IMG/VR virus record: IMGVR_UViG_3300017917_000579
Coordinates: 1-20,516 of that record
Direction: 5' to 3' (one strand)
Source: a virus
DNA: 20,516 bases
Position 1 is the first letter of the stretch, and the number at the start of each line of letters is the position of its first letter. The translations under genes and the position numbers were made by a program. The notes under the pieces are model-generated. The model was given only the letters and a program-made list of their open reading frames with translations. It did no database searches and was not told the DNA's origin. Positions 2,834 through 20,516 of this stretch are shown one piece after another.

Positions 2834-4441
2834 ATGAAGTCAGACATCAAAATCAATCAAGGCTACAAGGCCAAACCTATCAAAGACGTTGCTAAAAAAC
2901 TAGGGCTCAAAGACATCGAGCCCTATGGCAACTACAAAGCCAAAGTTGATCCCACACAAGTTAAAAACAAGTCGTGGGGTCGACTCATACTAGTCACAGC
3001 AGTAACACCGACACCCGCTGGTGAAGGTAAGACCACAACAACCATTGGCCTGGCAGATGGCCTACGTAAGTTACGATACAATAGTATTGTCTGCTTACGT
3101 GAGCCTGCGCTGGGTCCAGTGTTTGGTATGAAGGGTGGCGCTACTGGGGGTGGGTATGCTCAGGTATACCCCATGGAAGATATTAACCTACATTTTACAG
3201 GGGACTTCCATGCTATTGCTTCAGCACATAACTTGTTAGCTAGCCTAATAGACAACCACTTACACTGGGGTAATGCGCTGAATTTAGACACTAATCGTAT
3301 TACATGGCGTAGGGTCAGCGACATGAACGATCGTGCGCTACGCGACGTTTGTGTAGGTCTAGGAGCCCATAACAGCGTCACACGTCAAACAGGCTACGAC
3401 ATTGTAGTAGCAAGTGAAGTAATGGCCTGCTTATGTTTAGCAGGTGGATTCCAGGATTTAAAACGTAGATTGGGTAACATTACTGTAGGTTATACCTTGG
3501 ATAATAAGCCCGTTATAGCACGAGACCTTAAGGCCGAAGGTAGTATGGCAGCTTTGCTAAAAGATGCTGTAAAACCTAACCTAGTGCAGACCTTAGAAGG
3601 CACTCCTGCGCTGATACACGGCGGCCCATTTGCTAACATAGCACATGGCTGTAACAGTGTAATCGCCACTAAATTAGGCTTAAGATTGGCTGAATATGTG
3701 GTAACAGAAGCAGGATTTGGCGCCGATTTGGGTGCTGAAAAATTCATTAACATCAAATGTCGTAAAAGCGGGCTAAAGCCTGATGCTGTGGTACTTGTAG
3801 CCACTGTAAGGGCAGTTAAACACTGGGGTAACTATGATAACTTGGACAAACATATAGCCAATATCAAAACGCACTATAACCTGCCTTGTGTGGTTGCTGT
3901 AAACCGTTTTGCTGACGACACTGACGCAGATGTTCAAGCATTAATTGATCATGTTAGAACTACGTTTAACATTGAAGCAGTGGAAAGCACACACTTCCGT
4001 GATGGTGGTAAGGGTGCTACAGATCTAGCACACGAAGTTATCATGGCCATTGATGAGTCAGAAAAGACCATGGAATTGACCTACAAAGATGAAGATACAT
4101 TGTGGGATAAACTTAACACAGTGGCACGTAATATCTATGGTGCCAGTGGTGTTAGTATGGATGCTAAAGTTAGTAAGCACTTAGATTATTTACAGCAACA
4201 CTATGGCAATTACCCTATTTGTATAGCCAAAACACAGAGCAGTTTTAGTGATGACCCCTCTAACAAAGATGCTGCTACACAGTGGCACACACTAACCGTG
4301 CGTGAGTTAAGATTATGCTCGGGCGCAGAGTTTATTGTAGCCATTTGTGGTAACATTATGACCTTACCAGGTCTACCAGAACGGCCCAACGCTGAGCGTA
4401 TTGATATCAATTCTAAGGGTGACATAATAGGACTTGATTAA
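2834..4441 (+). CDS. fhs: Formate-tetrahydrofolate ligase
   Basis: A 535-residue protein that looks like a complete formate-tetrahydrofolate ligase, the enzyme making 10-formyl-tetrahydrofolate from formate, ATP and tetrahydrofolate. It feeds purine synthesis and formyl-methionine. Visible signatures: the P-loop [10 protein letters not shown] at residues 61-70, the [20 protein letters not shown] region at about 100-119, [11 protein letters not shown] in the middle, and the C-terminal [18 protein letters not shown]. The bacterial enzymes are about 555-560 residues, so this is slightly short but shows no missing block. It has its own promoter-like box, apparently no Shine-Dalgarno site, and a strong terminator 60 bases downstream, so it looks like a separate transcription unit. 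Composition looks like its phage neighbours. As a phage gene it would be an auxiliary metabolic gene boosting nucleotide supply, which is inference. Confidence 0.95.
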
Positions 4442-4568: not shown

Positions 4569-5693
4569 ATGTTAAAGTTTACACACGTCGAAGACTACAT
4601 CGAAGTACTAGCAGGCTATGATCCAGGATCTACAGTCTTGTTTAACACTGGCAAGTACACGTTCAGTTTGGCTCGCTATGATGTTAAAATAGTTGAAAGT
4701 ATGGCCAATGCCACAGTGTGGAGCAGTATGGCTCTTACTGATCGGCAAGGTGAACTGGCACTTAAACTTGTAGAAAAGTATCGCAGACAATATGCTAATC
4801 AAGGCATAGATATCACACCCGTTATTGAAAATCCCTCGTGGCGTATGCCCTTACGCAAAGTTGATCGCACACAGCGCATTTGGTTAGAAGATGGTGAAAT
4901 TAAAATTAAATTTCCCTACAATCAAAATTGGATTGATGACATACGTGGTTTTAAAGAAGTTAGTCAAGGACATGCTGAGTGGCGTAATGACAACAAGCAC
5001 TGGAGCCTAGGCCTAACAGAATATAATGTTAATTGGGTAGTAGCCTGGGGTGAAACATGGAAAATTGATATTGACCCAGAAGTCAGAGATCTGTACAATA
5101 AAATATTGCTAGCAGAAACCGAATCATACGAAATTAAACTAATACAACACGAAGATCGTTTTGAAATTACCAATGCAGCTGAGTCTCTGATCAACTACAT
5201 TAACGAACACCTAGGCGGCTTTGGCCTAGACAATGTCACCCGATTAGTTGACTCAGCAGGTGTGTTAGGCTACACAGTTGATCGTGGTATTAAATATGAT
5301 GAACTATTAGATCTATTTGGACCAGAACGATTGGTGCACGTACCAAGTACAGAATCAGGCAGTTTAGACCTGATATTTGACTATGCTGAACTAACAGATC
5401 GCTGGCCAGTGTACATATATAATCCAGGTACAAGTCAGCAAATTGATCTTAGTAGATTTACCGACAGCGAAATAGTTAAATTTGACCCTGCAGGTAAGAC
5501 TAAAAGATCTGACTACAACTTTTGGACTACCAAGGTAATCTATGTTAATAAGATACCCAAGGTGTGGGAGTGGCCAATACCATTGTTAGTTAGCACAGTA
5601 GAAATGATGTACGGTGGCAGTCGTATGGAATGGATGACACGTGCAGAAAAAATTATACATTATAGTTATGTTCCTTTGAGAGAAAAATCCTAA
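4569..5693 (+). CDS. Unknown protein with annealing-helicase-like accessory segment
   Basis: 374 residues, not recognised as a whole. Residues 109-152 (GEIKIKFPYNQNWIDDIRG through NDNKHWSLGLTEYN) follow the pattern of the HARP-type or helicase-accessory segment seen before SNF2-like annealing helicases: a hydrophobic strand, a helix ending in an arginine-containing turn, then W...K.W. No Walker motif is present, so it is not itself an ATPase. It starts without a Shine-Dalgarno site and its TAA overlaps the ATG of the UvsW gene (TAATG), implying fixed stoichiometry with UvsW. A DNA-binding partner or targeting subunit for the helicase is a reasonable inference; it could equally be a structural or regulatory protein. 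Confidence 0.6.
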   Translation: MLKFTHVEDYIEVLAGYDPGSTVLFNTGKYTFSLARYDVKIVESMANATVWSSMALTDRQGELALKLVEKYRRQYANQGIDITPVIENPSWRMPLRKVDRTQRIWLEDGEIKIKFPYNQNWIDDIRGFKEVSQGHAEWRNDNKHWSLGLTEYNVNWVVAWGETWKIDIDPEVRDLYNKILLAETESYEIKLIQHEDRFEITNAAESLINYINEHLGGFGLDNVTRLVDSAGVLGYTVDRGIKYDELLDLFGPERLVHVPSTESGSLDLIFDYAELTDRWPVYIYNPGTSQQIDLSRFTDSEIVKFDPAGKTKRSDYNFWTTKVIYVNKIPKVWEWPIPLLVSTVEMMYGGSRMEWMTRAEKIIHYSYVPLREKS

Positions 5694-7150
5694 TGGCCAC
5701 AGCCAGATTACTGATAAAAGATGAAGTAAATGTAAAGATAGAAGGCTTAGATTTACATGAACGCAAAGAACTTAGTAACAAGTTCAAATATGAAATACCT
5801 GGTGCACGTTACTTGCCTGCTGTTCGACTAGGACGCTGGGATGGCAAGGTTGGATTCTTTCAACTGGGTGGCAGTACCTATATCAACTTACTTCCAGAAA
5901 TACTCCCTTACCTAGACAGTCGCGGTTATGATATTGACCTACAGGATGTGCGTGAGTATCGCACGCAGTTTGATTTTGATCAAGTAACTGAAGAAACTTT
6001 TGCACACAAGGTATGGCCAGACAAGCACCCTATGGCAGGGCAACCTGTGGTTCTGCGTGACTATCAAATTGAAATTATCAACAAGTTCTTAGAGAATCCG
6101 CAGTGCATACAGGAAGTAGCTACAGGCGCAGGTAAGACCTTAATGACAGCGGCACTTAGTTATAGCTGTGAACCACATGGACGTACTATTGTTATCGTTC
6201 CGAACAAAAGCCTAGTAACACAAACAGAAGCAGACTATATTAATCTAGGCTTAGATGTGGGCGTGTACTTTGGTGACCGTAAAGAGTTTGGACATCAGCA
6301 TACAATCTGTACTTGGCAAAGTCTAAACATCTTACTTAAGAACACCAAGGGGGGTGAAGCAGACATTACCATTATGGAGTTTTTAGAAGATGTTGTCTGT
6401 GTTATGGTTGACGAAGTACACATGGCCAAAGCAGATGCGCTTAAAACTCTACTCACAGGTGTAATGGGTCATATACCAATCCGCTGGGGCTTAACTGGAA
6501 CTATACCTAAGGAAGCCTATGAACAGGTTAGTCTACTGTGCAGTCTAGGACCAGTAGTAGGTAAACTCAGCGCCAGTGAACTTCAAGAACAAGGTGTACT
6601 AGCTAACTGTCATGTAAATATCTTACAACTTGTAGACTATGTAGAATACAAGGACTATCAATCAGAACTACGCTATCTATTAGAAACAGACGAAAGGTTG
6701 GATTATATAGCACAGCTAGTTGAATCAATTAGATCTTCGGGCAATACACTAATCCTAGTAGATCGTATAGCACCGGGGCGAGCCTTAGTAGAAAAAATTC
6801 GTGATGCAGTATTTGTTTCAGGAGGAACTAAAGCAGATGACCGTAAAGAACACTATGACGATGTGGCAACAAGTGAAGACAAAGTTATTGTCGCCACGTA
6901 TGGTGTTGCCGCTGTTGGCATTAACATCCCTCGTATTTTTAATTTGGTTTTGGTGGAGCCTGGCAAAAGTTTTGTTAGGGTTATTCAAAGTATAGGACGC
7001 GGTATTCGCAAAGCCGAAGACAAGGATTTTGTACAGATTTGGGACATAACCAGTACCTGCAAGTTTGCCAAACGGCACCTTACAACTCGTAAGAAGTTTT
7101 ATACAGAAGCAAACTATCCGTATCAGGTAGAAAAAGTGGAGTGGCGATGA
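5693..7150 (+). CDS. uvsW: UvsW-like superfamily 2 DNA helicase
   Basis: 485 residues, close to T4 UvsW (about 500). Helicase motifs in order: LRDYQIEII (Q-like region, 121-129), Walker A ATGAGKT (143-149), DEVH (240-243), LTGT (267-270), and motif VI QSIGRGIRK (432-440). The N-terminal ~100 residues match the small DNA-binding domain position of UvsW. In T4 this enzyme unwinds branched DNA, reverses stalled forks, dissolves R-loops and switches replication from origin to recombination initiation. Translation is coupled to the upstream 374-residue protein and downstream to the SGNH-like gene through an ATGA overlap. Other phage SF2 helicases share these motifs, but size and setting favour UvsW. 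Confidence 0.88.
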   Translation: MATARLLIKDEVNVKIEGLDLHERKELSNKFKYEIPGARYLPAVRLGRWDGKVGFFQLGGSTYINLLPEILPYLDSRGYDIDLQDVREYRTQFDFDQVTEETFAHKVWPDKHPMAGQPVVLRDYQIEIINKFLENPQCIQEVATGAGKTLMTAALSYSCEPHGRTIVIVPNKSLVTQTEADYINLGLDVGVYFGDRKEFGHQHTICTWQSLNILLKNTKGGEADITIMEFLEDVVCVMVDEVHMAKADALKTLLTGVMGHIPIRWGLTGTIPKEAYEQVSLLCSLGPVVGKLSASELQEQGVLANCHVNILQLVDYVEYKDYQSELRYLLETDERLDYIAQLVESIRSSGNTLILVDRIAPGRALVEKIRDAVFVSGGTKADDRKEHYDDVATSEDKVIVATYGVAAVGINIPRIFNLVLVEPGKSFVRVIQSIGRGIRKAEDKDFVQIWDITSTCKFAKRHLTTRKKFYTEANYPYQVEKVEWR

Positions 7151-8916: not shown

Positions 8917-9392
8917 TGGCAACAGACTTCAACAGTCCACTATATATCGGTAACGAAATGGCAGCATTTGATCGTAAAGATCGTGCGTATTATGATAAGT
9001 TTACTGATGAAGAACGCAAACAGTTTTCAACTTATCTAATGCTACGCTACGGTGCTAGTGTAGAAGGCAGTGTAGACTTTCAGAGTTATTATCTGCTGGC
9101 TACAAATGAGAATGTAAACAAACATTTCTTTGACTTAAACAAGCATCCTAAACTACAATGGTTAATGTGTACCACTGTTAGTCCAAACATGGGCAAACAA
9201 AAACACTATTGGCAACCTGCTAAGAAAAAAGAAGGCAGTAACAACAAAGCAATTAAGTTTTTAACAGAACAGTTCCCCCAACTCAAAGAAGATGAAATCA
9301 AACTACTAGCAGCTATAAATGATAGATCAGATCTTACAGACATGGCAAGAAAACTCGGCTGGGATGACAAACGTATCAAGTCAGACTTATAA
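8916..9392 (+). CDS. Probable clamp-loader small subunit, gp62-like
   Basis: 158 residues. The pattern resembles T4-like gp62 of marine phages: an early KQFSTYLMLRYGAS block, an aromatic middle with NENVNKHFFDLN and LQWLM, a HYWQPAKKK block near residues 97-105, and a C-terminal helical part with KAIKFLTEQFPQLKEDEIK. In T4, gp62 joins gp44 to load the sliding clamp gp45. T4 gp62 is 187 residues and phage versions are often shorter, so the length fits. No ATPase motif is present, as expected. The match is a remembered family pattern, not an alignment, and gp44 and gp45 are not in this window. Start is coupled to the previous gene by TAATG. Confidence 0.5.
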   Translation: MATDFNSPLYIGNEMAAFDRKDRAYYDKFTDEERKQFSTYLMLRYGASVEGSVDFQSYYLLATNENVNKHFFDLNKHPKLQWLMCTTVSPNMGKQKHYWQPAKKKEGSNNKAIKFLTEQFPQLKEDEIKLLAAINDRSDLTDMARKLGWDDKRIKSDL

Positions 9393-10065
9393 GTGTAAGT
9401 ATTGTGGCAAAGAGTACCGCAAGGAATCAACTCTTGCGGCGCATCTATGCGAAAGCAAACGACGCTGGCAACAGGAAAAAGAACAAGGAGTCCAACTTGG
9501 ATTTCAAGCATACCTGCGATTCTTTGAGTTAACACAAGGTTCAGCTAAACTTAAAAGCTACAGTGATTTTGTAGAAAGTCCCTATTACAGCGCCTTTGTT
9601 AAATTTGGGCGTCACATGCAGAACATACGTGCTGTTAACCCTCGAACATTTATAGATTGGGTAATCAAACAGAATAAAAAACTTGACCACTGGACACACG
9701 AATCAGTATACTTAGAATATCTACATCAATATTTACGAAAGGAAGCAGTACAAGATGCACTGGAACGAGCACTTAACGAAATGCAAGACCACGTGGACAC
9801 CAACCCAGAAATTAAGGGAGGTCTCAGAGACTATTTTCGATACGGCCATAGCAATAGGATTTGCTTTCACATCAGTACGGGCCGTGTTAGTCCTTGGATT
9901 GTGTTTAATTGTACCTCAGGTATTGAGTTTCTTGAGTCGTTAAACGAAGAGCAATTGGCTATGATCTTACCTTGGATAGATCCGGATTATTGGCAACACA
10001 AGTTTAACGACTATCTAGCTGACACTGAATGGGTTAAGATGATATTGAGTGAGGCAGGACTATGA
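9364..10065 (+). CDS. Zinc-binding protein of unknown function
   Basis: 233 residues from the ATG at 9364. An in-frame ATG at 9319 would add 15 residues deep inside the previous gene; neither has a strong ribosome binding site, so the start is uncertain. A zinc-finger-like pattern sits at the N-terminus: C11, C14, H27 and C29 in YKCKYCGKEY and LAAHLCESKRR, followed by a basic patch. The remaining 200 residues are mixed helix and strand, with a long amphipathic helix around EYLHQYLRKEAVQDALERAL and a conserved-looking IDPDYWQHKFNDYLADTEW near the end. It lies between the gp62-like gene and a coiled-coil gene, so nucleic-acid binding in replication or late transcription is a fair guess. I do not recognise a named family. 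Confidence 0.65.
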   Translation: MTNVSSQTYKCKYCGKEYRKESTLAAHLCESKRRWQQEKEQGVQLGFQAYLRFFELTQGSAKLKSYSDFVESPYYSAFVKFGRHMQNIRAVNPRTFIDWVIKQNKKLDHWTHESVYLEYLHQYLRKEAVQDALERALNEMQDHVDTNPEIKGGLRDYFRYGHSNRICFHISTGRVSPWIVFNCTSGIEFLESLNEEQLAMILPWIDPDYWQHKFNDYLADTEWVKMILSEAGL

Positions 10066-10232
10066 GTGATCGTGTTACTGGAGAGCTTGTACAACTACGC
10101 AGTGAGGTGTTATACTTAATACGTCTAGTTGAAAAGTTAGAAAAGAAAATTACTCAACTTGAAGATACAGTTAAAAAGACAGAACAAAAGCCACAAGATC
10201 CTTTTCAAGGAAAAATAATTGAAAAACTTTAA
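10062..10232 (+). CDS. Small coiled-coil protein
   Basis: 56 residues beginning MSDRVTGELVQLRSEV. Residues 6-42 form a continuous helix with heptad-spaced Leu, Val and Ile and alternating Lys and Glu, typical of a coiled coil. It starts in an ATGA overlap with the zinc-protein gene and its last 14 bases overlap the start of the mini-DnaE gene, so all three are probably translated together. Function unknown. Confidence 0.6.
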   Translation: MSDRVTGELVQLRSEVLYLIRLVEKLEKKITQLEDTVKKTEQKPQDPFQGKIIEKL

Positions 10233-10809
10233 GTCAGACATTGACATAGACTTTGCTGATCGTGATCAGATTCTATCGTTATTAGATGTTACACCAAGTA
10301 GCATAATTCGCGATGGTAAATTAGTTCGGCATAACACAGGTGTGCATCCAACTGAGATTCCTGTGGATCCTTTTACTGGATATGCTAGCCTAGACTACAA
10401 CGATGCAGAAGATCGCGGTTATATTAAACTAGACTTTCTTAATGTTAACTTATATAAGCAGGTCCGTGATGAACAACACTTAGTAGAACTAATGCGTGAG
10501 CCTGATTGGACTAAGTTATATGATCTAGCAATATGTAGTCAGTTAATTCATGTGAACAATCATTATGATACCTTGCTGAAAATGCCCGAGCCTGTGGACA
10601 CTGTGGCTAGATTAGCTATGTTTCTAGCAGTTATTCGTCCAGCCAAACGACATCTAATAGGCAAAAGTTGGAAGGATGTTAGTCTTACTATTTGGGACAA
10701 AGTTGAGGGCGAATATGCGTTTAAAAAGTCACATGCGATTGCTTATGCAAATCTTGTAGTAGTAAATCTTAACCTACTCTGCGAACCAGCGTTATCGAAC
10801 GACGCTTAG
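10219..10809 (+). CDS. Miniature DnaE-like (DNA polymerase III alpha) protein
   Basis: 196 residues from a TTG at 10219, with CAAGG 8 bases upstream. Five landmarks of bacterial DnaE occur in the correct order: SDIDIDF (6-12) matching the PDFDVDF catalytic motif with D7 and D9 in the positions of E. coli D401 and D403; RHNTGVHP (37-44) matching the RNAGKHAGG region; GYIKLDFL (67-74) with D72 in place of D555; VARLAMFLAVIRP (129-141) matching the region around ALFRPGP; and FKKSHAIAYA (168-177) matching FNKSHAAAYA. E. coli DnaE has 1160 residues. The PHP domain, the GPGRGSGAGS motif, the thumb and most of the fingers are missing. It could be a minimal nucleotidyltransferase, a decoy of host polymerase, or a replisome adaptor. 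Its end overlaps the convergent gene. Confidence 0.7.
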   Translation: MKNFKSDIDIDFADRDQILSLLDVTPSSIIRDGKLVRHNTGVHPTEIPVDPFTGYASLDYNDAEDRGYIKLDFLNVNLYKQVRDEQHLVELMREPDWTKLYDLAICSQLIHVNNHYDTLLKMPEPVDTVARLAMFLAVIRPAKRHLIGKSWKDVSLTIWDKVEGEYAFKKSHAIAYANLVVVNLNLLCEPALSNDA

Positions 10810-11143
10810 ATCTTTTGTTGGCTATTTCTTTAAGGCTGACATAAGGACCGTGTTGTATTACTACGTCCTTGCTGTTGAATGTTTTCAAACAGACTCTAAA
10901 TTCAATCCAATCTTGTTTTAAGAATACATTAATAGGCACTAGTCTATTACTTTCCCACCACCATTGATCTGCTAGGTCTAAAAATCTAGTTTTCTGATCT
11001 AAAGTTTTTAATATTGCATAGTCGTAGATGGTTGTGATAATCTCGTCCGAGTTTTGTATGATACCAATGTACTCATTGCCACCGTAGGTGAGATAGCTTA
11101 AAAACGGGTATTGATCTAGTAAATTCTTAATGCTATCTTCCAT
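10769..11143 (-). CDS. Minus-strand phage protein of unknown function
   Basis: 124 residues from the ATG at 11143 (complement). The frame is open for a further 39 codons, but those overlap the start of the plus-strand gene at 11182 and read poorly. The protein begins MEDSIKNLLDQYPFLSYL and has a conserved-looking centre with YGGNEYIGIIQN and DLADQWWWESNRLVPINVF, ending in a basic tail (KRSKRRSITLVRRVG). The acidic to basic layout suggests nucleic-acid or protein binding. No family recognised. Its 3' end overlaps the convergent mini-DnaE gene by 41 bases, and its start is 38 bases from the divergent structural gene. Confidence 0.6.
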   Translation of the reverse strand: MEDSIKNLLDQYPFLSYLTYGGNEYIGIIQNSDEIITTIYDYAILKTLDQKTRFLDLADQWWWESNRLVPINVFLKQDWIEFRVCLKTFNSKDVVIQHGPYVSLKEIANKRSKRRSITLVRRVG

Positions 11144-11152
11144 TAACGCTCT

Positions 11153-11160
11153 GCTAAATA
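11153..11160 (+). promoter_or_regulatory. Late-promoter-like box before the structural gene at 11182
   Basis: GCTAAATA at 11153-11160 resembles the late promoter core of T4-like phages. Transcription would start about 11166, just before an AAGGA site (11167-11171) and the TTG start at 11182. The box lies in the 38-base gap between divergent genes, which supports a regulatory role. Confidence 0.45.
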
Positions 11161-11181
11161 TGTAATAAGGATTAAGACAAA

Positions 11182-11616
11182 TTGCCTCACATCTCAAGTT
11201 ATTTATATGACAACAGAATCCAAGTTCAACTTTTGGATGAGGACCCGTCTTTAAAGACAAGGAATCGCATCGTGTACGCTAGAACAGTAAAAGTTTATGA
11301 CAATATTGACAATGTAATCACTATTAATTTTCGTAACAGTGATCAAAAGCCAGCAAACATTGTAGGAAAAACATTTACATTTAGCGTAACCTCAGCAGAA
11401 GGTAATGCCGCAGTTTGGTCTACAAATGTCACTATAAGTAATGTGTCTACTGCTATAGGCAGTGTGACCTTAGATCAAGCGAACGTAGCTAACTTAACAC
11501 ACGAATTTTATAACTACACTATCAGCTACAATTCAGGTAGCCTAACTTTACCAGCCTACACCGACGACAACTGGGGCGCGGCTGGACAACTTCAAATACT
11601 ACATAACGTTTACTAA
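11182..11616 (+). CDS. Beta-rich baseplate or tail adaptor protein
   Basis: 144 residues from a TTG at 11182, with AAGGA ending 10 bases upstream. No ATG in frame gives a sensible alternative. The body is a run of beta strands with polar loops (VKVYDNIDNVITINFRN, DQKPANIVGKTFTFSV, SAIGSVTL-like strands), the pattern of immunoglobulin-like N-terminal domains of baseplate upper proteins: ask-for-strand, a DQKP turn, then a GKTFTF strand. The C-terminus holds PAYTDDNWGAAGQLQI. It sits directly upstream of two tail-fibre genes and downstream of a late-type promoter box, so a tail or baseplate structural role is likely. The exact T4 equivalent is not clear. Confidence 0.55.
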   Translation: MPHISSYLYDNRIQVQLLDEDPSLKTRNRIVYARTVKVYDNIDNVITINFRNSDQKPANIVGKTFTFSVTSAEGNAAVWSTNVTISNVSTAIGSVTLDQANVANLTHEFYNYTISYNSGSLTLPAYTDDNWGAAGQLQILHNVY

Positions 11617-11656: not shown

Positions 11657-14600
11657 ATGATTTTATCTAACGTAAACATAGGTTCAGGTCCATCAGCAGG
11701 TGATGGAGATAGATTACGCACCGCATTTAATACAATTAATCAAAACTTTGCTCGAGTACAAAGCAACGTAAATGCGTTAACCAACAGTGTTAGTTCGGTC
11801 GCTGGTAGAACTGGCAACATAATTTTAACTACACAAGACATTATAGGCATTAACAACTATGCTACAGTAAGTTATGTAAATAGTCAGCTAGGTAATGGCG
11901 GTGCTAATTTAAGTAGTATAGAATCTAACATAGCATCATTACAGGCAGATGTTAATACCCTTTATGGTAATGCAGGTGTCCAAAGTGCTACCCTAGCTAC
12001 ACTAACAGCCAATGCCGCACTACAAGCTGGCAGTCTAGCAACATTAACCAGTAACGCTGCTGTGCAAGCAGGAGAACTGTCATCACTGTTAGCTAATGCC
12101 GCAGTGCAAGCTGGGCAAATTAGCTCGTTAGCTGCAAATCTAGCACCTTACGGTGACAGTAACGTTGGTAGTTATCTAACCACTTATGGCGGTAACATTA
12201 GTGTAAGTAATATTATATTTGATGACCTGTCAGTACAAACCACAGCCTATACAGGTACACAATGGCGCAGTAATTTAGAATCAAATGTTCGTGTGAAACC
12301 TAGCTGGTTAAGTTATGTAGCCGGAGGTAAAAATCAAGAAGGCGTTCAGTACGGTTTTGACAGCAGTGGTATGTTCTTTAGAGGTAACTCTAACGGTGAT
12401 TTCGCATATCCTATTCAAACAAGTCTACACTTCCACGAACAGGATGTGTTAGAAGTTTCCGCAACAATTTATTTTGGTACCACCAACGATGATCATGGTT
12501 TAAGTATTTTTTCAGCAGACACTCGTCCAATTTGGCAAAGTGGTACAAATGCTACACGTATAGCGTTTCAATTTGATGCTGGGATTCCGGTACTGTACGG
12601 ACAGACTACAGCCAATACAGCACCAGGTAGTCCTGTATTAAGCGCAGGTAATTATTATACAATTAAATTTAAATACGATCCTGGTAACACTGTGATTGTA
12701 GAAACATTCAGCGGTAATACTGCTACAGGTAGTCCAATCGACACAAGAAGCTTGAGTGAAGTACTACCGGCAGGTGACTACAAATTAGGGTTTGATGCTG
12801 ATAACGATTCTTTAGGAGTTAAAAGCTACTGGACTAATTTAATAGTTAGAACGCTAACTAATACAGTAGTTAATGACCTAGAAGTACAAGGGCAGATTAT
12901 TGGCAATCTTATACCGCAGAGTAATGTCACACAAAGTTTAGGTAACGTTACGCATCAATGGCGAGATCTGTGGGTCAGCAACGCTACAATTTATCTTAAC
13001 AGTGTTCCACTATCTTTAGATGCTGATAACACCCTATTAGTAAACAATGTTCCGGTAGTAACATATGATAACGGCACACTTAGTGTTGGTGGTAATGCTG
13101 TTTCCGGTGGCGAACCTACTATATCTAACACAGTTAAAGGATTTATTAATCTCGTAGGCGATCGTCCTAACAACGAAGATAACGTATGGTTTGAAAGCGT
13201 AGTGGTCCATGGACAATATGCTTATGCACTAGGTGGTGATGACGGATATATTGATAACAGTAATAATCGCAGCAAGGTCTACAAGTTTGATCTTGAAACA
13301 GGTGCTCAGGTATGGGTTAAACAGATCACCGCAGGCCGTGGAGCAACGTTTGATCTAACAATATCGGCAGGTAACAGTATAGTTACTGTAGATGCAGTGT
13401 CAGCAGGCGGCGTGGGATATAAAGTAGGCGAAGAAATTTTAATACCAGGATGGCAATTTGGAGGCAGTGACCCCGATAACGACGTTATCTTGATAGTGGA
13501 CACTATCGGTGGTAATAACAGCGTTCTCACTGCCAATGTAAAACCAGGATACGACACACAAGGTCTATCAGGAACCTTTACTGGTATTAGTTCACCATAC
13601 GATGATGCTCGCGGTGACACTGTCGCTATATCCTATGACGAATTTAATAACAAACTTATAGTAGTCACAGAATACAACAGCGGACGAGGCGATGTAAACG
13701 ATGGTTCCTGGAATTGGGTAAATGTCTATACTATGAATCCTACTACAGGAGCCATAGAAGAAACTGTGACCATGACTGAAGAAGGCGACATATATCCTAA
13801 CAGCATTGCCACATACAATGCTGATGGTAAGATTGCTATAGTTGGCGAGAAATACAACGAATATCGTGAGTTTGGCAATCTAACTATGTTGAATAAAGCC
13901 AACGGATATTTTGACATACTGAAATCTAACTTAGATCCAGAACACTATCCAGGCGCACCTTACAACAACTATAGTGATTTCTGGATCACTGGTACTGGTA
14001 TCGCAAATCAAGAGAACGTAGATCAAGTCAATGAATACGTAAACGTTACTACAACCGTTCGTCAAGGAAGCGGTGCAGTATTTGATTTGGTCAACAACGG
14101 AAACGGAACCTACGGATTCTCAACAATCGCAACTGCTGGCACAAACTATAGAGTAGGACATAAGATCAAGATACTTGGAACAAGTCTTGGTGGTGCTACG
14201 CCTGACAATGATGCTATTATTACAGTCGATGAGATTGACGGCTCGGGTGGAATTGTTTCAGCAACGTTAACTGGCACAGCACCTGGTGTAGTTGGAGCTA
14301 CCTTCAACGGTGTCACTGGATCTAACTATAATACAGGTTCAGGATACACAGCCTACATTTACATAAATCCAACCACTGGAGCATTTAGTTACGGTGGCAG
14401 CAACAATGGCGGTACAAACTATGTAGCAGGTGATGTTATCACGGTCGCAGGTACAACGTTTGCTGGCGGTACTTCACCTGCTAATGATGCTACTTTAGTT
14501 GTTAATGCTGTTGATGGTAGTGGCACCGTACAAAGCATAGTTGGCGGTACAGTTAGCGGAACAGGACCAACTACTGCGCTACGTATTAGAGTAGACAATG

Positions 14601-16027
14601 TAGACTTTACTGTTGAAGGTACCTGGGCTATGCGTCAGAACCTAGGCGGTGAAGCATTTGTCTGGACACCGAGTTGGAGTAACGCTATCGGCGGACCTAG
14701 CGGTGATAGATTCTACGATGTAACATGGAATGAAGACGGCACAGCCTTGTATGCTGTAGGACGCGGTGTTTATGAAGTTCCTTATCAACAGGCATTGGTA
14801 GTCAAGTTTGACGCTGTAGATGGTTCTATTATATGGAGCAAGGATATTAAATTTGACGAAGCAGACGGTCTTCAGTACGATCCATATAGACAAGCCCGTG
14901 CAGTGTGTATGGTACCTGATAGCAGTGACATTATGGTAGGCGGTGAATGGTACAATCCTATTGCCAACAGAAGTGAACTGATCCTCACAAGAATGACATC
15001 TGCAGGTGCAGCGGTATGGCAAAAGACCTATGGATTAGAGTCTCAGGGTGGTGAGCAGTATATGGATCCTGAAATTAGTCTAAAGGCTAGTGGCAATCGT
15101 GTGGTTATGAGTTTTGAGCAGAGTACCTATGGTAACGGTCGAGGTTTGGCCTATATGGTTATTAATCCAGCTAATGGCACAGTGGACCGCCATAGAGTGT
15201 TTAGTGCTGATGGCAACTCAAACTACAATTATTATAACACACCTACGGCTAACTTTGCTGACGTTTACTCAGATGCTACAGGAGATTATGTTGTCATGGC
15301 AGGCTATACTTACGTGCCTACAGACAACTACTACAATGCTCTATTAATGAAACTGCCTTTAGATGGCCTGGTTGATATTGCTGTAGATGAAAGACGTAGC
15401 ATTGGCGAGCATATTATGAATCGTCATACAGTTAATATAACCACAATGACTCCAGGATTTGATTCATTCACAGCAGACGAACATCTAGATACAATTACTA
15501 ATATTCTTGATGCTCGTAACTATGTGACTAGAGCACCAGATGGTAACCTTAACGTATGGTCATACACTATCACTGATGATAGCGCAGGATATTTAGAGTT
15601 TGGTGACGGAAGCAAGCAAAGTTTTGCCACAGACAAGATTCCGCAAATTCCTGCTGCCAACGACTACTACTTAACAGAACAAGACAGCGGTAAGCATATC
15701 TTCTTTGAACATGAGAATGGTTGGGTTTATATTCCGCATTGGGAAGATAAATCTCTTCCTGTAGGGTTCACATTTACTGTAGTCAATACCACAGGTAGTG
15801 ATTGTTATGTGGAAACCATGACTGGCGATACTAATAGAGCTAGACTAAAACTAGCAGGTCGCAACATTGATACCTACACCATAGGTATTCCAGATAGCGG
15901 TTCTGGAAGTATGGTAACATTCTTGAAAATCAAACAAGGATATTACATGCCTAACAGTGCAGGTGACATAGACTATCCAGATGTATGGATCGTTAGTGGT
16001 CCTGGCGACATCTACGACAACGACTAA
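11657..16027 (+). CDS. Very large tail-fibre protein with propeller-like and inserted modules
   Basis: 1456 residues. The N-terminus (GDGDRLRTAFNTINQNFARV, 16-35) is the typical start of phage fibre proteins. Next come four 14-residue coiled-coil repeats (105-160), a lectin-like jelly-roll region (about 210-400), and an LGNVTHQWRDLWVSNATIYL segment (428-447) common in fibre shafts. From about 495 to 1240 there are PQQ/beta-propeller-like strands such as KVYKFDLETGAQVWVKQI (540-557) and VVKFDAVDGSIIWSKDI (1048-1064). Three related ~75-residue modules interrupt this region (560-645, 803-885, 896-970). The C-terminus (1260-1456) is a separate beta-rich tip. It should build a receptor-binding fibre or side tail fibre on the virion. 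It is the only gene of its transcription block besides the next fibre, 9 bases downstream. Confidence 0.85.
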   Translation: MILSNVNIGSGPSAGDGDRLRTAFNTINQNFARVQSNVNALTNSVSSVAGRTGNIILTTQDIIGINNYATVSYVNSQLGNGGANLSSIESNIASLQADVNTLYGNAGVQSATLATLTANAALQAGSLATLTSNAAVQAGELSSLLANAAVQAGQISSLAANLAPYGDSNVGSYLTTYGGNISVSNIIFDDLSVQTTAYTGTQWRSNLESNVRVKPSWLSYVAGGKNQEGVQYGFDSSGMFFRGNSNGDFAYPIQTSLHFHEQDVLEVSATIYFGTTNDDHGLSIFSADTRPIWQSGTNATRIAFQFDAGIPVLYGQTTANTAPGSPVLSAGNYYTIKFKYDPGNTVIVETFSGNTATGSPIDTRSLSEVLPAGDYKLGFDADNDSLGVKSYWTNLIVRTLTNTVVNDLEVQGQIIGNLIPQSNVTQSLGNVTHQWRDLWVSNATIYLNSVPLSLDADNTLLVNNVPVVTYDNGTLSVGGNAVSGGEPTISNTVKGFINLVGDRPNNEDNVWFESVVVHGQYAYALGGDDGYIDNSNNRSKVYKFDLETGAQVWVKQITAGRGATFDLTISAGNSIVTVDAVSAGGVGYKVGEEILIPGWQFGGSDPDNDVILIVDTIGGNNSVLTANVKPGYDTQGLSGTFTGISSPYDDARGDTVAISYDEFNNKLIVVTEYNSGRGDVNDGSWNWVNVYTMNPTTGAIEETVTMTEEGDIYPNSIATYNADGKIAIVGEKYNEYREFGNLTMLNKANGYFDILKSNLDPEHYPGAPYNNYSDFWITGTGIANQENVDQVNEYVNVTTTVRQGSGAVFDLVNNGNGTYGFSTIATAGTNYRVGHKIKILGTSLGGATPDNDAIITVDEIDGSGGIVSATLTGTAPGVVGATFNGVTGSNYNTGSGYTAYIYINPTTGAFSYGGSNNGGTNYVAGDVITVAGTTFAGGTSPANDATLVVNAVDGSGTVQSIVGGTVSGTGPTTALRIRVDNVDFTVEGTWAMRQNLGGEAFVWTPSWSNAIGGPSGDRFYDVTWNEDGTALYAVGRGVYEVPYQQALVVKFDAVDGSIIWSKDIKFDEADGLQYDPYRQARAVCMVPDSSDIMVGGEWYNPIANRSELILTRMTSAGAAVWQKTYGLESQGGEQYMDPEISLKASGNRVVMSFEQSTYGNGRGLAYMVINPANGTVDRHRVFSADGNSNYNYYNTPTANFADVYSDATGDYVVMAGYTYVPTDNYYNALLMKLPLDGLVDIAVDERRSIGEHIMNRHTVNITTMTPGFDSFTADEHLDTITNILDARNYVTRAPDGNLNVWSYTITDDSAGYLEFGDGSKQSFATDKIPQIPAANDYYLTEQDSGKHIFFEHENGWVYIPHWEDKSLPVGFTFTVVNTTGSDCYVETMTGDTNRARLKLAGRNIDTYTIGIPDSGSGSMVTFLKIKQGYYMPNSAGDIDYPDVWIVSGPGDIYDND
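11969..12136 (+). repeat. Four 42-base coding repeats
   Basis: Four degenerate tandem units of 42 bases encode 14-residue repeats in the pattern NAxVQAGxLxSLxA (residues 105-160 of the large fibre). Two heptads per unit place hydrophobic residues regularly, so this is likely a trimeric coiled-coil shaft. Unit-length change by recombination would alter fibre length in whole 14-residue steps. Confidence 0.8.
13334..14566 (+). repeat. Three copies of a beta-rich module inside the fibre
   Basis: Copies at about 13334-13591, 14063-14311 and 14342-14566 encode related modules of 75-86 residues. Shared landmarks are a GAxFDL-type start, AGxxYxVGxxIxIxG, GGxxPxNDxxIxVD and xGSGxVxSA-like strands. 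Copies 2 and 3 are adjacent, while copy 1 is separated by about 160 residues of propeller-like sequence. They look like independently folding inserts added to the fibre. Confidence 0.75.
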
Positions 16028-16036
16028 GGAATCACA

Positions 16037-18517
16037 GTGAGTATCATACAAGCGATCATAGGCACTAATCTAACCATATCCGCAGGTGGAGGTGGCGGAG
16101 GTGGCGGAGGTGGTGGAGTTTCACCAGATGGCACACACTTCTGGGATGGTTCTCCTATAGTCTGGGGCTCCGCAGGCATAGATCCATACAAACCTACATA
16201 CAATGCCACCTACAGTTTTCCAGATGGTTTTACTAATGCTCAGATGTGGGATTTCAATGGCGTTAATCAGTTAATGACCACTGGTCCATTTAGTAATGTT
16301 AGTCAGGTTTATATGAACATTTGGTTCTATCCCACAGCCGCTGGTTGTATATTAATGACTATACAGGGACAGGCCACAGAAAATGTTAACTACCATCACG
16401 CAGCCTTGACTATAAATAGCAATCAAACTGTCACTGGAGGATTCTGGGCAGGTATGAACATTGGTTCAATGACCACTGTCAACACAGTGACCTTAAATGC
16501 TTGGAATCATATCTACTTTAGACACAACGGCACACAGGCTCTACTACAGTTGAATGGCGGTACAGCGGTCACAGCCACCCATTCCTGGGAGTTACAAGGC
16601 AATCCATTTGTGGCAGGATTTGGTACAACCAGTATAACCAACAGTGGAATCAGCGCCAGATATCAAGGCATGCTGGCAGAATTTAGATTGAACTTTGGTA
16701 ACACAGCCAGCAACTATGATTCCACAAGAAGTATCTACGAAGCACCACAACAGTTCATCTATGATGACTTTACCATTGAGTGGTGGCAGAAAGCAGAAGC
16801 CATTGGCGTAAACAGCCGCCCTTGGTGTATCGGCTTGCTAGGCGAGCCGTCTGGACAGGTAGTGAGCATTAGCTATGAAGGCAATGGTCGCGACTATTTC
16901 TGGATCAACAACGGTTTCCCGGCACAACAAGAATACAGACCCTTAAAGAATCACTATGGCATAGGTTGGGAACACATGGCTATAGTGCGTAAAGACAACA
17001 CAGTAAAACTTTATTCAAATGGTAGCGAGTACATGTTGTGGCCCTATGCTAATCAAGCCATAACAGCAACCAATGCCAATCTTGTAGTGGGTACAGGTGA
17101 ATTAGCGGCAGGCAACTTCCAAGGTTATATCAAAGACCTACACGTTATCAAAGGTACTGCCAAGTACACTACAAACTTCCTAGTGCCTACAACACCTATA
17201 CAGCCCCAGACTGGGTCAGTATTTCTGTTACCAGCCGCAGCATCAGGCACAGCATTTGATGACACGGTAGGTAACAAAGTTGGCACAGCCACCAATACAC
17301 CAACTTGGAGTTCTGACAATCCCTTCCAGTGGCCAACTCAGACATTTACAGCCTTTGCTTATGGCTCAAACAGAATAGCACTAAATTCTCCATATGTGAA
17401 CAATCCCGTTGTAGGTCTAAAAGTCAGCGACACTCAAGGCTGGAGTGACTATGTTACCAGCGTGGATCTAGCCTTTCATTTAGATTTTGACAATAGTGTA
17501 CCTGTAAGAGCACCGGGCGAAGTTTATACTATCGAAGAAGCAGCCATTTCAAAATTTACTAACTCGGGTAGTTTTAATGGAAGTATAGGTAATTTAGACT
17601 TTGGTGGTGCTAATTACTGGAAGGCTTTAGAGATAGTCAAACCTGGATGGACGGTGAGCACAGGAGGGCCAACCTTAGGTGTAGTAACTTCGGTGCAGAC
17701 TAATCTTGCTCCTAACTTTATACGAATAAATGTAAACTTTGATCCTGGTTCAGTATATGATACCTATACATTTACTCCTGCTTACGGCGGCAGTATACGC
17801 TTTGATGCAGGGGACCGTATCAACTATGGTGCTAGCGTAGACTGGGCCTTTGACGTTGACGGCATTGCCACTGACAGTCTAACATTGAATCTTGATGCTA
17901 ATAATATTAACAGTTACCCTGGCACAGGCACTAGTTGGAATGATCTAGGCCTAGGCAACTTCCCATACACATTGTATGGAGCACCTTATTGGGACAATGG
18001 TCCTCCAGGTTCGTTCAACTTCAATGGAACGAATCAGTATGCCACAGGTCCCAATGTAAATCTTCTGCCTGGTTCTGGTTATACAAAAATGGTATGGTTT
18101 AGACTTAACACTCTAAACGCAGACAATAACCTAGTCAGCAGTGACGGTGGGGGGCACTACATGTTCTTCTCAGGCAGTAGCACACTCTATGCTGGACACG
18201 CTAACGTTCCTCCATACCAAGGAGCAGGAGCATTTGGTTCAACTTCTACATTTGGTATTAACACTTGGTATTGTGCTACAGTAACTTTCTCTGTGGCCAA
18301 TGGTCTTAAACTGTATGTAAACGGAGTTTTAGACAGACACGATCCTGCCTACCAAACACCTCACGGCGGAACAGGATCTACTAACATTGCCTGTTTTGGC
18401 GCAGGTGGTAATCTGTTAAATGGTAAGATCGGGCGAGTGCTATGTTACAGTAAAGAACTTACCTCAGGCGAAGTGTTACAGAACTTCAATGCTACGAGAA
18501 ATCGTTACGGAATTTAA
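16037..18517 (+). CDS. Tail-fibre adhesin with three LamG-type lectin domains
   Basis: 826 residues from a GTG at 16037 with TAAGGA 6 bases upstream. After a short N-terminus (MSIIQAIIGTNLTISA) comes a run of 11 glycines (17-27). Three concanavalin-A-like/LamG lectin regions follow at about 51-235, 236-385 and 610-826; the second has KLYSNGSEY and FQGYIKDLHVIKGTAKYT, and the third has LNLDANNINSYPGTGTSWND, KLYVNGVLDRH and a closing GEVLQNFNATRNRYGI, a very common end of phage LamG fibres. Residues 430-600 form another beta-rich spacer. LamG folds bind glycans, so this is likely a receptor-recognition protein on the virion working with the fibre encoded 9 bases upstream. It ends convergently on the QueC-like gene with a 4-base overlap. 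Confidence 0.85.
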   Translation: MSIIQAIIGTNLTISAGGGGGGGGGGGVSPDGTHFWDGSPIVWGSAGIDPYKPTYNATYSFPDGFTNAQMWDFNGVNQLMTTGPFSNVSQVYMNIWFYPTAAGCILMTIQGQATENVNYHHAALTINSNQTVTGGFWAGMNIGSMTTVNTVTLNAWNHIYFRHNGTQALLQLNGGTAVTATHSWELQGNPFVAGFGTTSITNSGISARYQGMLAEFRLNFGNTASNYDSTRSIYEAPQQFIYDDFTIEWWQKAEAIGVNSRPWCIGLLGEPSGQVVSISYEGNGRDYFWINNGFPAQQEYRPLKNHYGIGWEHMAIVRKDNTVKLYSNGSEYMLWPYANQAITATNANLVVGTGELAAGNFQGYIKDLHVIKGTAKYTTNFLVPTTPIQPQTGSVFLLPAAASGTAFDDTVGNKVGTATNTPTWSSDNPFQWPTQTFTAFAYGSNRIALNSPYVNNPVVGLKVSDTQGWSDYVTSVDLAFHLDFDNSVPVRAPGEVYTIEEAAISKFTNSGSFNGSIGNLDFGGANYWKALEIVKPGWTVSTGGPTLGVVTSVQTNLAPNFIRINVNFDPGSVYDTYTFTPAYGGSIRFDAGDRINYGASVDWAFDVDGIATDSLTLNLDANNINSYPGTGTSWNDLGLGNFPYTLYGAPYWDNGPPGSFNFNGTNQYATGPNVNLLPGSGYTKMVWFRLNTLNADNNLVSSDGGGHYMFFSGSSTLYAGHANVPPYQGAGAFGSTSTFGINTWYCATVTFSVANGLKLYVNGVLDRHDPAYQTPHGGTGSTNIACFGAGGNLLNGKIGRVLCYSKELTSGEVLQNFNATRNRYGI
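16085..16117 (+). repeat. Poly-glycine GGN tract
   Basis: Eleven consecutive GGN codons (GGT, GGA, GGC mixed) encode a flexible glycine linker near the N-terminus of the LamG adhesin. An internal GGTGGCGGA unit is repeated. Synonymous mixing of codons suggests selection for the glycine run itself, though length change by slippage is possible. Confidence 0.85.
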
Positions 18518-19104
18518 CGAATCTTTTGTTCTCGTAGTTTAACGCAGGTATCACACTGACCACAGGGTTTGATACTGTTTTCTAAGTAAACAGGACGACG
18601 ACAACTCCAAAACATGTTACGCACCGACTCTGGTAGCAGGTCATATATCTCACGTTTGGTCAAATTCAACACAGGATAAATCTTTTCTGCATCAGTAAAC
18701 GCTGACAATATCTTATTACCGCGAATTCTACGATCTTCTAAACTGTAGTTACCATCATTGGCCTGCATACCCATGGCAACTTTTTTAATATTTGGGTTAA
18801 CGCTACAAACATAACCAGCAAAGAAGTTCATAGTGTCTGTGTCGAATAAGAAATACTTGCCAAAAGGCGGCGCTCCTATTTCACTTTCACTGTAGGCAAA
18901 TTTGAAACCTAATGTGTGTAGTTGTTGTAGGGCGGAATTTACAGCCAATTGTTCTGCTCGCCAACGGTTCTCTACATTCTTGTTGTGAACATGATGTATG
19001 TGGACAGCATAGTCCTTGTAGGCTTCTTCAGTTAAGAGTTTGTATACCATACCCAGGCTGTCTAGGCCGCCTGAATACATGGCTAGGATTGTAGGTTGTT
19101 CCAT
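18514..19104 (-). CDS. QueC-like PP-loop ATPase (7-cyano-7-deazaguanine synthase family)
   Basis: 196 residues. The N-terminus carries the PP-loop SGGLDS (residues 11-16) that binds ATP, and the C-terminus has four cysteines, C168, C181, C184 and C187, in the order and spacing of the QueC zinc site (SCRRP ... CGQCDTC). NYSLEDRRIRGNKI (119-132) lies where QueC has its YPDCR-like loop. QueC makes preQ0 from carboxy-deazaguanine with ATP and ammonia, for queuosine tRNA or for deazapurine modification of phage DNA against restriction. Bacterial QueC is about 220-230 residues, so this is somewhat short. No queD, queE, folE or transglycosylase gene is visible here, so the exact product is open. Its start overlaps the upstream gene on the same strand by 22 bases. 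Confidence 0.75.
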   Translation of the reverse strand: MEQPTILAMYSGGLDSLGMVYKLLTEEAYKDYAVHIHHVHNKNVENRWRAEQLAVNSALQQLHTLGFKFAYSESEIGAPPFGKYFLFDTDTMNFFAGYVCSVNPNIKKVAMGMQANDGNYSLEDRRIRGNKILSAFTDAEKIYPVLNLTKREIYDLLPESVRNMFWSCRRPVYLENSIKPCGQCDTCVKLREQKIR

Positions 19105-19601: not shown

Positions 19602-20516
19602 ATGCTGAATACTGTTCAAGACTTTGTTAAAACTGTTCTTCCTGCTAAGAAGAAAACAACTCCTAGCGGATGGACCAGTTTCAACGCACCTTGTTGTGTT
19701 CACAACGGGGAATCAGCAGACACACGTGGACGAGGTGGACTGACAGCCAACGCTGATGGTTCGGTCAGTTATCACTGTTTCAACTGTAACTTCAAAGCCA
19801 GCTATCAACCAGGTCGTCACTTAACATTCAAATTCCGTAAACTCTTACGCTGGTTAGGTGCTGACGAAAACGATGTCAAACGACTAGTAATTGAAGCAAT
19901 TCGTATTCGTGAACTTGTTGCTCCGGAAGAGCTTAAGGCAGAAGAAGAAAAGATCGAATTCAAAACTCGTGAATTACCTAAAGATGCTATTAGTTTTCAA
20001 GCACTACTTAATTTTTATCTATTAGATGATTTTCGTAACGTACCGCCACTATTAAATTCTGCGGCAGACTATGTTAAAGATCGTAAAATTGATACACAAA
20101 AATATGATTTTTATTGGACAGATAGTACTGAACATAGTCTACATCAACGTGTGATTATTCCCTGCATTTGGGAGGGTAAGATTATTGGCTACACATCAAG
20201 AGCGTTTGTAGACGGAGTTAAGCCAAAATATTACAGTCATTATGAACCCAATTTCGTGTTTAATATCAATAACCAAATGCCAGATGCTAAGTTTGTGGTG
20301 GTATGTGAAGGTCCATTTGATGCTATGAGCATAGATGGTGTAGCAGTATTAAGCAATGACTGTTCAGAAACACAAGCAGACATAATTGAAAGCCTGGGCT
20401 GTGAGGTTATTGTTGTTCCTGACGCAGACAAAGCAGGCGCACAGTTAGTAAAACGTGCTATTGAATATGGCTGGAGTGTAAGTTTTCCTGTATGGCAAGA
20501 AACCTGTAAAGACATA
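19602..20516 (+). CDS. T4 gp61-type DNA primase, 3' end beyond window
   Basis: The frame is open for 305 codons to the window edge, so the gene is partial at its 3' end. Residues 31-62 form a zinc-ribbon pattern, with C31/C32, H34, C59 and C62 (CCVHN ... YHCFNCNFKA). A Toprim catalytic region follows: VVVCEGPFDA (232-241) with E236 and D240, then VVPDADKAG (271-279) with D274 and D276. This is the layout of the primase gp61 of T4-like phages, which makes RNA primers on the lagging strand with helicase gp41. It starts without a Shine-Dalgarno site, just after a promoter, divergent from the minus-strand pair. Other Toprim primases such as a T7-type fused primase-helicase remain possible until the rest is seen. 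Confidence 0.85.
   Translation, partial: MLNTVQDFVKTVLPAKKKTTPSGWTSFNAPCCVHNGESADTRGRGGLTANADGSVSYHCFNCNFKASYQPGRHLTFKFRKLLRWLGADENDVKRLVIEAIRIRELVAPEELKAEEEKIEFKTRELPKDAISFQALLNFYLLDDFRNVPPLLNSAADYVKDRKIDTQKYDFYWTDSTEHSLHQRVIIPCIWEGKIIGYTSRAFVDGVKPKYYSHYEPNFVFNINNQMPDAKFVVVCEGPFDAMSIDGVAVLSNDCSETQADIIESLGCEVIVVPDADKAGAQLVKRAIEYGWSVSFPVWQETCKDI

Follow-up and report, generated by a model that had tools for sequence, protein, structure and literature searches.

A small DnaE-related phage protein as the probable C-terminal half of a split, thumbless family C polymerase

The 196-residue protein described here is probably the C-terminal half (C-unit) of a DnaE-type family C polymerase that lacks the thumb and is split over two genes in T4-like jumbo phages, a second protein of about 170 amino acids (N-unit) supplying the rest. 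The window, as the whole stretch of DNA that was analysed is called here, is a 20.5-kb fragment of a phage genome (20,516 nucleotides), and the N-unit and the family B polymerase were observed in relatives. Directly supported are the DnaE homology of both halves, their complementary break point and the conservation of catalytic and nucleotide-pocket residues, together with a near-perfect co-occurrence of the halves, their placement in replication gene clusters and their co-existence with a family B polymerase.

The arrangement itself has been known since 2021, when a split minimal Pol III alpha was described in the 'group 2.2' jumbo phages (Iyer et al. 2021, PMC7824862), and the window protein adds a member to this system. 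No difference between the two was found: the window C-unit has the features of the published stand-alone C-terminal unit, which carries the Mg2+-binding aspartates and the template-binding part. The preliminary description had considered a DnaE core unexpected in a T4-like phage, which does not hold for this phage group in view of that publication. The present analysis adds where exactly the palm is broken, which invariant residues are shared, how often the halves co-occur, and that their genes lie near the clamp loader and the primosome.

The C-unit gene and its conserved residues

The C-unit ORF is real, and its conservation is far beyond chance. It matches the family phrog_11778 (PHROGs v4, 'DNA polymerase') over residues 3-192 of its 196 amino acids (E=1.5e-61) and is a member of that family, with no difference from it. 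Homologues were found in 64 annotated phage records and in at least 505 IMG/VR stretches, and are spread over Pseudomonas, enterobacterial, Vibrio, rhizobial, Xanthomonas and other jumbo phages. Their length is uniform (186-207 aa in 149 copies), and a dN/dS of 0.07-0.13 indicates purifying selection. The gene begins with a TTG codon that is also present in close relatives, several of which have a stop codon directly or one codon upstream; since no longer frame is left in these relatives, TTG is the only plausible start.

These figures bear out the earlier argument that the order of the DnaE-like motifs is not due to chance. They also weigh against a decaying remnant of a captured host dnaE gene, a disfavoured reading that is barely credible: the protein is far shorter than DnaE, but purifying selection, a constant length in 149 copies and the broad spread over phages of many hosts are not those of a gene in decay. 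The domesticated remnant proposed in the preliminary description, if understood as a dead relic, likewise conflicts with the invariant catalytic aspartates and with a dN/dS near 0.1.

The C-unit contains all five motifs on which that description was based, and in this order: SDIDIDF, RHNTGVHP, GYIKLDFL, IRP and FKKSHAIAYA (Table 1). Residues D7, D9, D11, H38, K70, D72, R140, P141, H172 and Y176 are invariant among 71 non-redundant C-unit homologues, and the alignment upholds the proposed equivalence of D7, D9 and D72 with the catalytic aspartates D401, D403 and D555 of E. coli DnaE. In family C polymerases these three aspartates are absolutely conserved, and D405 is DnaE-specific (PMC3919608); the counterpart of D405, which is Asp in DnaE and Asn in PolC, is D11 in the C-unit and is an invariant Asp in its homologues. 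Arg667 and His787 of M. tuberculosis DnaE1 line the pocket of the incoming and templating bases (PMC8922275), and the RP dipeptide and the spacing suggest that they are probably equivalent to E. coli R639 and H760.

Table 1. Features of the window around the C-unit gene (residue numbers are those of the C-unit)
Feature	Position	Strand	Remarks
UvsW-like helicase	5693..7150	+	Marker of the replication neighbourhood
C2H2 zinc-finger protein, phrog_11058	9319..10065	+	Conserved neighbour, upstream of the C-unit in most relatives
Shine-Dalgarno-like AAGGA	10207..10211	+	7 nt before the TTG start; read from the sequence
C-unit of split minimal Pol III alpha, phrog_11778	10219..10809	+	196 aa; stop codon included
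D7-I-D9-I-D11	10237..10251	+	E. coli D401, D403 (metal ligands) and D405; Asp invariant in 71 homologues
H38	10330..10332	+	E. coli H511 (KHAGGV); invariant
K70-L-D72	10426..10434	+	E. coli K553 and catalytic D555; invariant
R140-P141	10636..10641	+	E. coli R639-P640 (fingers); invariant
FKKSHAIAYA fingers motif	10720..10749	+	H172 and Y176 are E. coli H760 and Y764; both invariant
Convergent gene overlapping the 3' end of the C-unit	10769..11260	-	Frame shown; true start probably further in (Met at about 11146)
Toprim primase (gp61-like)	19602..20516	+	Runs off the contig; replication marker; domain match and synteny with relatives

DnaE homology and the division of the palm

The kinship between the C-unit and DnaE is remote, since a Pfam search with the window C-unit sequence alone gave no match, and no Pol III sequence in the PDB was matched by the C-unit (phmmer, single sequence) or by a C-unit profile (hmmsearch). 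The profile search proposed in the preliminary description was thus negative for the single sequence and positive between profiles: a diverse C-unit profile (A1), compared with a DnaE profile built from E. coli and viral DnaEs, gave a match with 97.5% probability, E=6.5e-12 and a score of 88; 40 column-shuffled DnaE profiles scored at most 31, and the reversed profile scored 19. The combination of the diverse A1 profile and the DnaE profile was needed, because a C-unit profile reached only 12% against E. coli DnaE alone and a less diverse profile (A3) reached 77%. In the A1-DnaE profile alignment, K70-L-D72 falls opposite K553-F-D555 and IRP opposite FRP. This alignment does not extend to the DIDID strand or to FKKSHA, whose positions come from a multiple alignment. 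A further match to FKKSHA of the C-unit is given by phrog_405, and 8 of 36 C-unit members are hit by the Pfam fingers model (best E=3.3e-5), which weakly detects the C-unit gene in four phage genomes.

Structures of the two units were predicted with AlphaFold (AF2), each folded separately as a single chain from input rows consisting of window and IMG/VR sequences only. For the C-unit model (pLDDT 93.8, pTM 0.83), the top 12 PDB matches in Foldseek are all Pol III alpha, with a probability of up to 0.99 and individual E-values that are weak (0.008 to 0.65, the best across both units being 0.006-0.008). Among viral proteins, the leading fold matches are Pol III alpha of phages or unnamed proteins of polymerase size. 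Profile comparison and the predicted fold clearly place the C-unit in the palm/fingers part of a family C Pol III alpha. Its palm and fingers homology to the E. coli protein includes the retention of D401, D403, D405, D555, K553, R639, H760 and Y764.

Unlike bacterial DnaE, the C-unit consists of little else. No PHP, thumb, (HhH)2, clamp-binding or OB domain of Pfam was found in proteins of 186-207 aa that start at DIDID, and the tau- and epsilon-binding regions of DnaE are likewise absent, so the earlier statement that the linking domains of DnaE are gone is borne out. The whole thumb is missing and the fingers are reduced, having lost YQEQVM and RRAMGKKKPEEM, blocks that are near-invariant in DnaE elsewhere. 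The GS nucleotide-binding motif (E. coli G361-S364) is also absent in cis, because it precedes D401 in DnaE and the C-unit starts at the D401 strand; it is carried by the separate N-unit. What had been taken for a miniature DnaE core is therefore of DnaE ancestry but holds only half an active site.

The absence of exactly these regions bears on a further suggestion of the preliminary description, namely a decoy that binds the host clamp or tau and poisons the host polymerase. The resemblance of the C-unit to host DnaE speaks for it, but the clamp-, tau- and epsilon-binding regions are those that are missing, conservation is concentrated on the active-site residues of the catalytic core, and the C-unit is accompanied by a second conserved half, with both in replication gene clusters. 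This reading is disfavoured and highly improbable.

The N-unit was recognised with the Pfam model DNA_pol3_alpha (PF07733), which detects it as one additional gene per genome in five large complete genomes of relatives; the match is above the cut-off (E 8e-13 to 3e-9) and covers only profile positions about 13-98. The model matches all 25 N-unit members (25/25). N-units are 161-179 aa long (111 copies), contain an invariant G-x-GRGS and match the DnaE profile with 97.5% probability (E=8.2e-12). The top 10 PDB fold matches of the predicted N-unit structure (pLDDT 90.1) are all Pol III alpha. N-units end in EF(L/F)(K/R/N), the counterpart of 'ERFLN' in DnaE, and the C-unit begins at the next strand (...DIDID). 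According to the alignments, the N-unit and the C-unit together rebuild the DnaE palm, without the PHP domain, the thumb, most of the fingers, or the HhH, clamp-binding and OB domains.

Virtual N+C pairs of nine genomes were aligned with full DnaEs; for one pair the N-unit was taken from RAS14 and the C-unit from the near-twin CM1. The pairs and the full DnaEs share 20 invariant positions. In E. coli numbering these are E328, G359, G361, R362, G363, S364 and F391 in the N-unit part, and D401, D403, D405, H511, P527, K553, D555, L557, R639, P640, K758, H760 and Y764 in the C-unit part.

Co-occurrence and possible activity of the two halves

A profile test detected the N-unit in 10 of 10 named genomes of C-unit phages, including that of a 141-kb Alishewanella phage. 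When record lists were compared by hand, all 60 N-unit records also had a C-unit; among the 60 C-unit records listed, the N-unit was undetected in one 109-kb Klebsiella record, and one near-twin of the Alishewanella phage fell outside the test. Both units are present in five of the five IMG/VR contigs tested that exceed 300 kb. Several shorter IMG/VR fragments have one unit only, and one 289-kb contig has an N-unit with the C-unit undetected. No N-C fusion occurs among the 149 C-unit and 111 N-unit copies.

A T4-type family B polymerase was found in 5/5 genomes above 200 kb in one set and in 11/11 in a second set; none was found in the smaller fragments of the first set, one of which is 139 kb long. 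The earlier expectation that a phage of this kind has its own family B polymerase beside the DnaE core is thus borne out in relatives. Alishewanella phage Slicko01, whose circular 141-kb genome is below jumbo size, encodes a family B polymerase as well as both halves, and its C-unit gene lies near the clamp loader and the primase/helicase.

In the mechanism proposed for the split polymerase, the two chains would assemble non-covalently into one palm, to which the N-unit would contribute the first half with the GRGS nucleotide-binding loop, and the C-unit the strands with the Mg2+-binding aspartates and a reduced fingers region. The N-unit loop would hold the triphosphate, the C-unit aspartates would hold two metals, and R140 and H172 would pack against the nascent base pair. 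The complex would then bind dNTP and template and transfer nucleotides by a two-metal mechanism, probably in an auxiliary role and with low processivity alongside the family B replicase; possible jobs are the filling of gaps or primer ends, lesion bypass and the synthesis of one strand. Iyer et al. have also suggested that the split enzyme works together with the family B polymerase, either in making one strand or in repair (PMC7824862). The loss of the thumb, of the HhH, clamp-binding and OB domains, and of YQEQVM and RRAMGKKKPEEM makes processive synthesis unlikely without help from the phage clamp or other partners. With the thumb and both fingers blocks missing, templated dNTP insertion by the pair is therefore not assured either. 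That the pair is a working thumbless family C enzyme with hardly more than the palm and two nucleotide-pocket motifs, and thus a minimal active site of the Pol III type built from two genes, is advanced only tentatively; its reaction would lie beyond that of the family B replicase, and could be primer-end handling, lesion bypass or non-templated addition.

The same losses could be read differently. With the thumb, HhH and both fingers blocks gone, and a family B polymerase present for synthesis, the pair might keep the palm fold in order to bind primer ends or dNTPs, or to scaffold the family B replisome, without polymerising. This is rather unlikely: a scaffold would need neither the three catalytic aspartates nor D405, the GS motif, R639 and H760, all of which are invariant.

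Another reading, also unlikely and slightly more so, is a nucleotidyltransferase of a different kind, used for template-independent tailing, primer synthesis or transfer to another acceptor. The pol-beta-type nucleotidyltransferase fold includes non-templated enzymes, and a palm within this fold with the thumb missing and the fingers reduced would suit such a role; the residues of the templating and incoming base pocket (M. tuberculosis Arg667 and His787, probably E. coli R639 and H760) are nevertheless invariant, and the gene neighbourhood is replisomal. The minimal nucleotidyltransferase envisaged in the preliminary description fails for the C-unit alone, which is without the GS motif, and can hold only for a two-protein assembly.

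The palm is divided so that one half has the nucleotide-binding loop and the other the catalytic aspartates. Kept in both halves across many jumbo phages, beside a family B replicase, it amounts to a natural minimal core of a bacterial replicase. If active, the split polymerase would reveal what Pol III cannot do without in its chemistry; it is also relevant to a published proposal that likens such pieces to ancestral replicases. With the break point located and the retained residues listed, the system can be tested directly; a literature search found no biochemical study of a split phage Pol III alpha.

Truncated or small Pol III alpha-like proteins, with one annotated gene each, have been reported for CBB (PMC5259590) and Atu_ph07 (PMC6102473), which belong to the same phage lineage as the C-unit phages. 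In the portions of those reports that describe the gene, the two-gene split is not recognised, and the small alpha protein may be either half. The 'split DNA polymerase' of MIJ3 was considered as an example of the same system and rejected, being a family B polymerase with an intein (PMC6892783).

Gene neighbourhood and the remainder of the window

In relatives, the C-unit gene is located between uvsW and the gp61/gp41 primase-helicase genes, and the N-unit gene lies apart from it, a few genes before the gp44 clamp loader. The convergent gene that overlaps the 3' end of the C-unit has homologues at the same place in 13 of the 16 phage loci compared, and no known domain was found in it. Genes for DnaQ-like epsilon/exonuclease proteins are present near the C-unit in XacN1, GAP32 and RaK2 (L132 8865-9458; L135 738-1583; L078 736-1557), and such a neighbour may be a proofreading partner.

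A full-length formate--tetrahydrofolate ligase (PF01268, E=1.4e-230) is encoded at 2834-4441 on the plus strand of the window and has no PHROG match; a gene of one-carbon metabolism seems unusual for a phage. Two very large ORFs of 1456 and 826 aa occupy 11657-18517 (+) and separate the C-unit from the primase, whereas in relatives a single short gene is found there; the 826-aa ORF contains Laminin_G_3 domains and a glycine run. Finally, a QueC/PP-loop ATPase-like protein (PF06508, E=1.3e-06) is encoded on the opposite strand at 18514-19104.
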